The position numbers and the translations under genes were made by a program. Positions 24,866 to 28,388 of a DNA stretch of 64,000 nucleotides are shown here, one piece after another. The notes under the pieces were generated by a model that searched no databases, was not told where the DNA came from, and saw only the letters and a list, made by a program, of their open reading frames with translations. Source of the DNA: Pseudomonas spelaei (lineage in GTDB: Bacteria > Pseudomonadota > Gammaproteobacteria > Pseudomonadales > Pseudomonadaceae); the NCBI RefSeq assembly GCF_009724245.1, contig NZ_WNNK01000020.1, positions 62,001 through 126,000 of the forward strand, written 5' to 3'. Each line of letters opens with the position of its first letter. Within the stretch, counting starts at the first letter, position 1.

Positions 24866-25491
24866 GCGGCCCGGAGCGTGTCACCCTGGCGATGACCGGC
24901 GCGTCCGGCGCGCCCTATGGTCTGCGGCTGCTGGATTGCCTGATACGGGAAGATCGCGAGGTGCACTTTCTGATCTCCAAGGCCGCGCAACTGGTGGTGG
25001 CCACCGAGACCGATGTCGCACTGCCTGCCAAAGTGCAGATGATGCAGGCCTTCCTCACCGAATACACCGGCGCGGCGGCGGGGCAGATCAAGGTCTATGG
25101 CAAGGAAGACTGGATGTCGCCGGTGGCCTCTGGCTCCGGTGCGCCGGCGGCGATGGTGGTAGTGCCGTGTTCCACCGGGACGTTGTCGGCCATTGCCACG
25201 GGCGCCTGCAATAACTTGATCGAACGGGCGGCGGATGTGACGTTGAAAGAGCGTCGGCAGTTGATTCTGGTGCCGCGCGAGGCGCCGTATTCGAGCATCC
25301 ACCTGGAACACATGCTCAAGCTGTCGAACATGGGCGTGACCATCTTGCCGGCGTCGCCGGGCTTTTATCACCAGCCGCAAACCATCGATGACCTGGTGGA
25401 TTTTGTGGTGGCGCGGATTCTCAACCTGCTGAATATTCCCCAAGACATGCTGCCGCGTTGGGGCGAACACCATTTGAGCAGCGATGAATAA
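24862..25491 (+). CDS. ubiX: Flavin prenyltransferase UbiX
   Basis: UbiX makes prenylated FMN, the cofactor of UbiD decarboxylase in ubiquinone synthesis. The 209-residue protein starts at GTG overlapping mpl. [17 protein letters not shown], the [20 protein letters not shown] segment and [16 protein letters not shown] are family hallmarks. It overlaps the next lipoprotein gene by 8 bases. Confidence 0.96.
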
Positions 25492-25768
25492 GGCACTCAT
25501 GGTAGTGCTGGCGCTGCAGTTGGGTGGTTGTGCCACGGCACGCACTCTGGACGCGGCGCAACCCGGCGCGCCGGTGGTGTATGCCGGGATGCGGCTGGAT
25601 TTGTATGCGATGCAGGGCGGGTGCTGCGCGATGGATCGGTTTGGTGCCGAGGCGCCGCGCTATCCGGGCGTTGACCTGCCAGCCAGCGCCTTGCTCGACA
25701 CGCTGCTGTTGCCGCTGTCGGTGTTGACGGTGTTGGGGGTTGGGTTTAACGCGACGGGTGGGTTGTAG
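25484..25768 (+). CDS. YceK/YidQ-family lipoprotein
   Basis: The 94-residue protein has a short signal peptide with the lipobox LQLGGC (Cys 16), so it is a lipoprotein; the residue after the Cys is Ala, consistent with outer-membrane sorting. The [30 protein letters not shown] pattern is typical of the YceK/YidQ (DUF1375) family. Function is unknown. Translation is probably coupled to ubiX through an 8-base overlap. Confidence 0.8.
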
Positions 25769-26567: not shown

Positions 26568-28286
26568 TTAGTTGCTCTTCGCTTCCTTGCTATTTAAAGA
26601 GACGCTTTCCAGCGCCTTTCGTGCTTGCTGTTTACGCAGCAACTGCCAATGGGCGATCACCCCTTTGGGCGCCCAGATTTGCGGTTCGGAGGCTTCGAAG
26701 TTCTCCGCCATTTCGCGCTCGGTGACATGCCTTTGCGCCAGCTTGAAGGCTTGCTGCAGATCATCAGTCTGGTTGAAAGCCTGGGCGAACAGGGCGTCGC
26801 CGAAGTACGTGAAGTCAGCTTCCTCCGAGCAGCCGAACGAGACCCGGTCGGCCCGAGAGGCCGTCATGATCAGGGTGTGTTCGTCTTTCAATGCCGGGAT
26901 GAAGCCGCCGGAGTAGCAGGCTGAAATGACGATGATCTTGTCGCGGTTTTTCAGCGGCTCCATGACGGCCGCCAATTCATCGGCGGGCAGGTCGGCCAGC
27001 TCCATGCGTGGCTGGTCCAGCACCAGCTCGTGCTCGTGGGTACCGTGACTGGTCAGGTAGATGAACACCAGGTCTTCTGGCCCGCTGCGCTCGGCCAGGG
27101 TTTGTACCGCGCGGCGCAGGCTTTCCCGGGTGGCCATGGGGCGGTCGGCAATATGGTCGCGGTGGTTGACCAGGCGAATCTGGCCGTAGGCGCCGAAGCG
27201 GGTGGCGAGCATGTTGCTGACGTAGTCGGCTTCGCGCAGGAATACGCTTTGCTTGCCGTCGCCGGCCAGCGTCAAGGTGTACAGCTCAACCGTCGGAGTC
27301 GACGCGGGCACTGCGGCCAGAGCCTGGTCAAGCAGACGGCCCTGGGCCAGTATCCCGACCTCCAGGGCGTCGGGCAGCAATTTGCCATCGGCGTTGCGTA
27401 CGCGCATGCCGTTGACCCACGTTCCGGCCTGGACGGTGCCATCGGTGAGCACCAATGTGCCCTTGCCTTGATAACTGTCGCTGTCGAAGCCGCCAATGTA
27501 GAAGCTGCCATCAGTGAGGTTCAGGCGCCCCTGGCCGGTGAAGCGCCAATCGCTGAATTGGCCGACGTAGTGGCTGGCGTCGACACCGATCAACTCGCCC
27601 TTGCCGCTCAGCGCGCCTTCCTTGAATTCGCCGATCCACACGTCACCGTCGGCGTTTTCATAACGGCCTTTGCCGTTGAGCTGGTTTTGTTTGAAATGGC
27701 CGACGTACATGTCGCCGTCGGCGCTGTTGAAGGTGCCGTTGCCTTCCAGTTGGCCATCGACGAAGTGGCCACTGAACTGGTTGCCACTGTCGTCGTTGCG
27801 CTGGCCTTCGCCATTGGGTTTGCCGTGGCTGAATTGGCCCTGGTATTGACTGCCGTCGGGCAGTTCGAGGCGACCGAGGCCGGAATACTGATCGTCCTTG
27901 AATTCGCCGCGGTAGGTCATCAGGCCCTCTTTGAGAGTGCCTTCACCGTTGCGTCGCCCTTGCTTGAAACCGCCAACGTAGCTGCTGCCCGGCGTGGTCA
28001 GCGTGCCCTGGCCGTCGAACAGGCCTTGCTGGAACTGACCTTTATAGACCTCGCCATTACTGCCATGCCATTCGCCCTGGCCATGCCACTGGCCCTTGTC
28101 GAACTGCCCGGCGTACCAACTGCCATTGGGGTAGTCCACCCGACCCTGGCCTTGCAGCAAACCGTTGATCACCTCACCCCGATAACGACCTCCGTCGGGC
28201 AGTCGCGCATCAGGCGGCAACAGCGATTCGCCGTCGCCGCAAGCGGTGAGCAACAGGACAAGAGCAAGGGGAGCGAGTGGGCGCAT
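26568..28286 (-). CDS. MORN-repeat lipoprotein with C13 (legumain-type) peptidase domain
   Basis: The 572-residue protein begins with a lipoprotein signal (LVLLLTAC, Cys 16). Residues about 33-295 hold some twelve MORN-type repeats of about 23 residues (GxxYxGxFxxGxxxGxGxxxxxD). From about 330 to 530 a caspase-like clan CD domain follows. The catalytic His is in LTSHGTHEH (His 414) and the Cys in VISACYSGG (Cys 457), matching C13 peptidases. The protein is probably anchored in the outer membrane facing the periplasm. Peptidases with this fold usually cleave after Asn or Asp, but the substrate is unknown. I recall a homologue near PA4016. It precedes the SDR-like gene on the same strand. Confidence 0.85.
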   Translation of the reverse strand: MRPLAPLALVLLLTACGDGESLLPPDARLPDGGRYRGEVINGLLQGQGRVDYPNGSWYAGQFDKGQWHGQGEWHGSNGEVYKGQFQQGLFDGQGTLTTPGSSYVGGFKQGRRNGEGTLKEGLMTYRGEFKDDQYSGLGRLELPDGSQYQGQFSHGKPNGEGQRNDDSGNQFSGHFVDGQLEGNGTFNSADGDMYVGHFKQNQLNGKGRYENADGDVWIGEFKEGALSGKGELIGVDASHYVGQFSDWRFTGQGRLNLTDGSFYIGGFDSDSYQGKGTLVLTDGTVQAGTWVNGMRVRNADGKLLPDALEVGILAQGRLLDQALAAVPASTPTVELYTLTLAGDGKQSVFLREADYVSNMLATRFGAYGQIRLVNHRDHIADRPMATRESLRRAVQTLAERSGPEDLVFIYLTSHGTHEHELVLDQPRMELADLPADELAAVMEPLKNRDKIIVISACYSGGFIPALKDEHTLIMTASRADRVSFGCSEEADFTYFGDALFAQAFNQTDDLQQAFKLAQRHVTEREMAENFEASEPQIWAPKGVIAHWQLLRKQQARKALESVSLNSKEAKSN

Positions 28287-28348
28287 AGCGGGATCCGGAT
28301 AATTGAGCGCCGAGTATGCCGCAGCTGCGAGATCTATACATAAATTTA

Positions 28349-28376
28349 CACGAAACAGCGTATGTGCTGTTTCGTG
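28349..28376 (-). terminator. Hairpin downstream of the MaoC gene
   Basis: A perfect 11-bp stem (CACGAAACAGC with GCTGTTTCGTG, 6-base loop) lies 13 bases after the MaoC-gene stop. The minus-strand bases that follow read TAAATTTA, a moderate tail. A terminator is the simplest reading. Confidence 0.5.
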
Positions 28377-28388
28377 CCGGACTAAGAC

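Follow-up and report, generated by a model that had tools for sequence, protein, structure and literature searches.

What is the function of a protein in which a lipobox and an array of MORN repeats precede a legumain-type peptidase domain? The question is raised by an ORF in the window, i.e., the 64,000-nt stretch of the Pseudomonas spelaei genome analyzed here. The ORF codes for a 572–amino acid predicted lipoprotein and lies on the minus strand at 26568-28286, the position given in an earlier note on this DNA, from which the strand was absent. None of the papers found in the open-licence PMC literature, judged by titles and the openings of abstracts, describes a MORN-C13 protein as such, and we found no substrate or activity for one there. 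We propose, with moderate confidence, that the protein has the legumain (C13) fold and acts in the periplasm as a membrane-anchored cysteine peptidase that serves the envelope. The frame, its domains, the predicted fold, the conserved dyad, the presence of the gene in every genome sampled from the genus, and a promoter-like box upstream of it were computed. In the mechanism that we infer, the protein would, after export, acquire a lipid at Cys16 and be retained in the envelope; its array of twelve MORN hairpins would serve as a stiff arm that positions or dimerizes the enzyme; and the His414/Cys457 dyad would cleave a small number of envelope proteins, perhaps a single one, in the course of routine envelope maintenance. 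If active, such an enzyme would add to envelope proteolysis a route distinct from those of the Deg, Tsp, and rhomboid proteases, which are well known. The features of the locus are as follows.

26568..28286, minus strand: MORN-C13 lipoprotein gene, 572 amino acids (ORF, Pfam, model)
28242..28286, minus strand: predicted lipoprotein signal peptide, residues 1-15 (short, hydrophobic, with LTA at its end)
28239-28241, minus strand: Cys16 codon of the lipobox LTAC (regular expression)
27396..28187, minus strand: twelve MORN beta-hairpins, residues 34-297 (Pfam PF02493, DSSP of the model, Foldseek)
26667..27293, minus strand: C13 clan CD peptidase domain, residues 332-540 (Pfam, model, structure alignment)
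27045..27047, minus strand: His414, aligned with legumain His148 (sequence alignment)
26916..26918, minus strand: Cys457, aligned with legumain Cys189 (sequence alignment)
28313..28318, minus strand: CATACT, a -10-like box 26 nt 5′ of the start codon (conservation in Pseudomonadaceae)
28348..28377, minus strand: 12-bp inverted repeat with a 6-nt loop, between the MaoC-like gene and the C13 gene
25898..26539, minus strand: NAD(P)-binding SDR-like gene, 28 bp downstream of the C13 gene (Pfam)
25484-25768, plus strand: gene for a small predicted lipoprotein, DUF1375 (YceK-like) (Pfam)

Domains and predicted fold

The protein matched Pfam Peptidase_C13 (E 9.3e-42, 143.8 bits against a cut-off of 22.8) and Pfam MORN (E 1.3e-33, 113.3 bits against a cut-off of 22.5). 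Searches of the window's own genome returned two C13 matches, both of them segments of this gene, and three MORN matches, all within it. Pfam C14 caspase had no match there at E 0.001. Most of what the earlier note had read from the letters was borne out: Cys16 stands in the lipobox, the MORN repeats that it had put at about twelve correspond to the 12 beta-hairpins of the model and to the Pfam match, His414 and Cys457 lie within SHGTHEH and SACYSGG, and the C13 assignment agrees with the Pfam match, the predicted fold, and the intact dyad. The 28-bp spacing between the C13 gene and the SDR frame was also as described.

AlphaFold2 was run with the full protein and 43 C13-domain relatives. The model of the full protein had a mean pLDDT of 83.4 and a pTM of 0.57. 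When averaged in 10-residue blocks, the C13 domain was mostly at 94 to 98 and never below 88; the MORN blocks ranged from 45 to 90, with the twelfth hairpin partly below 50, and the placing of the MORN part relative to the C13 part is therefore uncertain. Foldseek searches with the whole model returned MORN1 crystal structures as the best matches (TbMORN1 6t4r, E 4.0e-20) and legumain at E 4.8e-9. TbMORN1 and other MORN1 proteins have the MORN hairpin array in common with the window protein but are eukaryotic and lack a peptidase domain.

Structure alignment by VIA-align matched the model to metacaspase-4 (6w8r_B, Z 21.6, 2.5 Å, 208 residues aligned), legumain (7fqi_B, Z 21.2, 2.8 Å, 206 aligned), a peptide asparaginyl ligase (7f5j_A, Z 20.5, 3.6 Å, 212 aligned), PIGK of the GPI transamidase (8imx_K, Z 19.8, 4.6 Å, 216 aligned), and caspase-7 (4jr1_B, Z 18.3, 2.8 Å, 192 aligned). 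In the predicted model, then, legumain and metacaspase-4 are tied as the best structural matches, and the clan CD (caspase-like) fold of the C13 family, for which the earlier note had suggested a structural comparison, is present as predicted. A sequence-profile search of the PDB yielded, at E 0.01 or better, 17 distinct sequences comprising legumains/AEPs and one metacaspase, so no bacterial member of the clade is among them. PIGK, which shares the clan CD fold, was absent from these matches. With human legumain (MEROPS C13) the protein shares the fold, the dyad, the residue equivalent to Ser216, and the SFGC/SYAC loop; it differs in that Arg44 and His45 are replaced, Tyr stands for Glu190, the C-terminal prodomain is missing, and a MORN arm and a lipobox are added.

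Active site and specificity pocket

Conservation was assessed in 222 related domains (203 unique), with 16 of 238 rows left out: L032, a duplicate of L001, and L050-L061 and L106-L108, whose HMM scores were below 150. His414, Gly415, Cys457, Gly460, Ser483, Gly485, Cys486, Ser533, and Pro535 were invariant. The His/Cys dyad was found in 222/222 domains; 142 of them came from searches without the Cys motif, while the patterns that selected the other 80 loci included either the SFGC motif or that of the Cys, and in these the residues are therefore partly present by construction. The dyad is kept whether the N terminus carries a lipobox and MORN repeats, a hydrophobic segment and MORN repeats, or several predicted membrane helices. 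Besides Cys16, Cys457 and the likewise invariant Cys486 are the sole cysteines of the protein, and a periplasmic redox switch formed by the two is conceivable.

In the alignment to the legumain sequence, MAFFT misplaced the N-terminal part of legumain, and the register of Arg44 and His45 was accordingly fixed by eye along a stretch free of gaps. On this basis, the counterparts of legumain Arg44, His45, Ser216, and Asp231 are Leu350, Arg351, Ser483, and Asp497, of which only the serine is invariant among relatives. In legumain, these four residues form the Asn pocket (PMC4357240). Position 350 is Leu or Met in 61/61 Pseudomonadaceae rows. At position 497, 46 of these rows have Asp and 10 have Arg; P. 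aeruginosa has Arg, and 112/122 rows of a form with several predicted membrane helices (polyTM, see below) have either Arg or Gln. The complete legumain S1 set is thus not found, which argues against the Asn/Asp-specific cleavage suggested in the earlier note; judged from these residues, the enzyme most likely has no Asn preference at P1. The C13 domain is followed by 32 residues in one predicted helix. Legumain is described as having a C-terminal activation peptide and LSAM prodomain of about 110 residues (PMC4357240). No prodomain of this type was found, and activation most likely does not proceed by its removal.

It is therefore unlikely that the protein is a true asparaginyl endopeptidase with legumain specificity in the periplasm. 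Membership of the C13 family, the invariant Ser483, and the retention of Asp497 in the window protein and in most Pseudomonadaceae rows speak for such an enzyme, but the replacement of Arg44 and, by the register described, of His45, together with the Arg or Gln found at position 497 in P. aeruginosa and the polyTM rows, speaks against it.

Relatives, gene neighbors, and alternative activities

At E 0.001, a C13 match was present in 149/149 genomes searched of the genus, which named loci indicate to be Pseudomonas. Each of these genomes thus has a caspase/legumain-fold protease domain, and for the window protein a periplasm-facing orientation is predicted. Matches were also found in 38/244 genomes of the order, 30/274 of the class, 46/299 of the phylum, and 97/119 of one related family, likewise taken from named loci to be Moraxellaceae, but these samples overlap and the weak matches include large multidomain proteins of another type. 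Four genomes (G325, G366, G687, and G789) gave several weak C13 matches each, many in very long frames of up to 3306 amino acids; the matches in very long frames represent a different type of clan CD protein. MORN repeats were present in 57/57 same-genus rows read, with some genomes counted twice. Since the C13 match is genus-wide and the MORN repeats accompany it in all of these rows, the gene is not a chance reading frame.

Simple motif and hydropathy rules divided the 222 domains into 61 MORN forms from Pseudomonadaceae, 18 MORN forms from elsewhere, 122 polyTM forms, and 21 short forms. The survey of domain architectures proposed in the earlier note extends the combination of MORN and C13 to other Gammaproteobacteria, outside Pseudomonadaceae. 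In a tree of 80 representatives, midpoint-rooted only, the MORN rows of Pseudomonadaceae grouped together (support 96/96); a wider group of 26 contained these and 13 of the 18 MORN rows from elsewhere, and the 33 polyTM rows made up a block of 44 with 11 short rows. The MORN and polyTM forms coexist in the Moraxellaceae genome G953 (L264 and L267, both read) and apparently in G977, where the MORN form was read (L265) and a second frame of 465 amino acids was assigned to polyTM by length alone. The two forms are therefore probably old paralogues, at least in these genomes. A model of an Acinetobacter polyTM protein (L150) has five long helices ahead of the C13 domain, and its positively charged N terminus suggests that the domain is periplasmic. 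The five-helix membrane module seen in this model and in the A. baumannii C13 protein (L263:3398-4849) is conserved in the aligned Moraxellaceae rows.

Two loci stand apart. In L249 (G080), the C13 frame starts inside the MORN region and an upstream ATG has a lipobox-like start, which reflects either a break of the gene frame or an assembly error. The C13 protein of L199, a record that bears the name Streptomyces cinereus JCM 3040, is Moraxellaceae-like, and two neighbor families of L199 are common with the Moraxella locus L205; this locus is probably contamination. A viral or mobile origin was considered and rejected: 25 stretches of viral contigs fitted the search pattern, and none was confirmed as a relative. 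A phage collection contained two Acinetobacter phage records with a C13 gene and one streptococcal MORN match.

The SDR gene adjoins the C13 gene on the same strand in 23/23 Pseudomonadaceae loci (from 20 hand-picked genomes of the 149 in the genus and 3 others), and a MaoC-like gene, found 102 bp upstream in the window, adjoins it in 22/23. The earlier note had suggested the SDR protein as a partner, but the gene was found in 0/17 MORN-C13 loci outside the family. When nine window genes were searched by tblastn (E 1e-3), only C13 was matched in these 17 loci and in 10 Moraxellaceae loci, several of the outside loci being short or covering one side of the gene only. The SDR gene is thus a lineage-specific neighbor and not a required part, and no conserved operon partner was found in the loci outside Pseudomonadaceae. 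Ten proteins near or at outside C13 genes, scanned with Pfam, were TsaD/TsaB-like proteins, a SAM methyltransferase, an esterase, an MFS protein, UPF0176/rhodanese, DUF3592, a cNMP-binding protein, a metallo-beta-lactamase-like protein, the C13 protein of Acinetobacter, and one protein that matched no family.

The CATACT box was found upstream of 49/55 unique Pseudomonadaceae genes with 120 nt of upstream sequence and in 1/55 control stretches inside the gene; in 43 of the 49 it lies 26 to 32 nt ahead of the start codon. It is missing in L019, L021, L062, L066, L068, and L249, and P. aeruginosa reads CACACT. A sigma-70 consensus scan listed no site at the box. Its conservation suggests that the C13 gene has its own promoter. 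The inverted repeat farther upstream is a possible MaoC terminator or operator; the region has about as many terminator-like sites as chance would give (4 against 3.9 expected), and the repeat is not obviously conserved in sequence in the upstream stretches of relatives.

These comparisons also bear on activities other than hydrolysis. The protein could act as a transpeptidase, like the GPI transamidase or the plant peptide ligases, and join envelope proteins to an amine acceptor. The clan CD fold covers both activities, the ligase and PIGK structures score near legumain against the predicted model, and a membrane anchor with an extracytoplasmic site would fit. PIGK belongs to a multi-subunit transamidase, however, and C13 alone of the nine window genes recurs in the 17 outside loci; the profile matches, moreover, are legumains/AEPs and a metacaspase and not PIGK. 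We know of no acceptor, partner subunit, or recognition motif for such a reaction and regard it as quite improbable. A bolder version, in which the MORN-C13 and polyTM-C13 proteins together are a bacterial envelope counterpart of the GPI transamidase that cuts at a residue other than Asn and transfers the product to an acceptor, while the MORN arm determines how far the active site stands from the membrane, is more speculative still, and we consider it very unlikely.

Another possibility is that the protein works through its MORN arm, with the peptidase fold as a noncatalytic docking module. MORN repeats mediate protein-protein contacts (PMC7725318), and no activity was found on record. Against such a scaffold, the dyad is invariant in all related domains, including those of relatives without MORN repeats, and the C13 part is better conserved than the MORN part: among 55 rows, with the truncated L249 left out, 68/209 positions against 59/264 were invariant and mean identity to the window protein was 0.79 against 0.69. 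A purely structural role is thus doubtful, at about the level of the transpeptidase. In nine pairs of the window gene with a relative, dN/dS was 0.050 to 0.116 for the C13 part and 0.054 to 0.236 for the MORN part, values to be read with caution for saturation since dS was 0.56 to 1.2; the C13 gene is under purifying selection. A death or defense effector triggered by stress or phage, in the manner of bacterial defense caspases, is least credible of all: the matches to PADLOC "caspase" (E 1.3e-6, 25.9 bits, residues 370-512) and to the EACC1-associated caspase of NCBIfam (caspase_w_EACC1, NF047832; 36.2 bits, below the cut-off of 140) are set against the presence of a C13 match in every genus genome searched instead of a variable, island-like distribution, fixed neighbors in 23 loci, a predicted export signal, purifying selection, and no confirmed relative in viral contigs.

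Envelope location and studied relatives

The membrane-anchored peptidase that we favor would require export and lipidation. A lipobox was detected by regular expression in 60/61 Pseudomonadaceae rows, and from its Cys the sequence reads CGDGE in 41 rows and CGEGE in 15. A close relative is found in P. aeruginosa CP109682.1 (L262), where the gene order is mpl, ubiX, YceK-like lipoprotein, oxidoreductase, peptidase C13, MaoC, LrgA, and LrgB. The DUF1375 (YceK-like) gene of the window thus adjoins ubiX in P. aeruginosa as well. The record is filed as a plasmid, has core chromosomal gene order, and is apparently chromosomal DNA. Because mpl is PA4020, counting along the gene order identifies the C13 gene, by synteny, as PA4016, an orthologue lying next to PA4015 and PA4017. 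PA4016 has the architecture and gene order of the window gene (60.5% identity) and differs from it in Arg at position 497 and in the CACACT box. An envelope proteome study includes PA4016 among its entries, with values, presumed to be ratios, of 0.19 and <0.05 in two pump-overexpressing strains (PMC7835679). The envelope anchoring foreseen in the earlier note is thus predicted by the lipobox, and the proteome entry is consistent with it.

A preference for acidic residues after the Cys has been noted for P. aeruginosa inner-membrane lipoproteins, and the rule by which these residues sort lipoproteins to the inner or outer membrane is disputed (PMC6469965). The acidic residues after Cys16 and the transmembrane anchors of the sister forms lead us to lean toward the inner membrane.

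The role of the arm was approached through TbMORN1, which is composed solely of MORN repeats. It showed no binding to membranes or vesicles and dimerizes through its repeats, although single phospholipids interact with it and TbMORN1(1-15) copurifies with phosphatidylethanolamine (PMC7725318). By analogy, the membrane-reading arm of the earlier note loses ground, and the idea of MORN repeats as a lipid sensor is weakened by the same data despite the copurification. The maturation of other lipoproteins and the sensing of envelope damage, also suggested in the earlier note, are conjectural roles. The MORN-C13 protein would offer a bacterial enzyme in which the contribution of a MORN array to a protease can be studied.

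Further literature was drawn on (PMC3406104, PMC8768575, PMC10203620, PMC4872528, PMC5346588, PMC10838990, and PMC10187892). Of two PA4016 transposon mutants, the one made in an exoU deletion strain was attenuated in C. elegans, the one made in wild type was not, and the authors dropped the gene. According to reviews, abrp of A. baumannii is a C13 gene, and cells that lack it have more permeable membranes and grow more slowly; the reviews disagree on the direction of its drug susceptibility phenotype. The original study (Li et al. 2016), by its title, reportedly holds that Abrp confers reduced susceptibility. We found one C13 relative in each of five A. baumannii records, and because it is the sole C13 gene in each, abrp is most likely this gene, an identification made by this count and not by sequence from the abrp study.

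AbrP resembles the MORN-C13 protein in its C13 domain, with 35.3% of residues in the matched part identical to those of P. aeruginosa, and in a presumably periplasmic location, and differs in having predicted membrane helices in place of the lipobox and MORN repeats and in its gene neighbors. Since it lacks MORN repeats and both forms coexist in G953 and apparently in G977, AbrP may be a paralogue of the MORN-C13 protein. If the link is true, it would connect the MORN-C13 protein with permeability. We have two chief doubts about the favored reading: we found no recorded activity for any member, and the strongest phenotype belongs to what may be a paralogue and is taken from reviews. The A. baumannii records are filed as plasmids, and three are 3.7 to 4.1 Mb long. 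In another study, a C13 transcript is among the predictors of early polymyxin exposure in A. baumannii.
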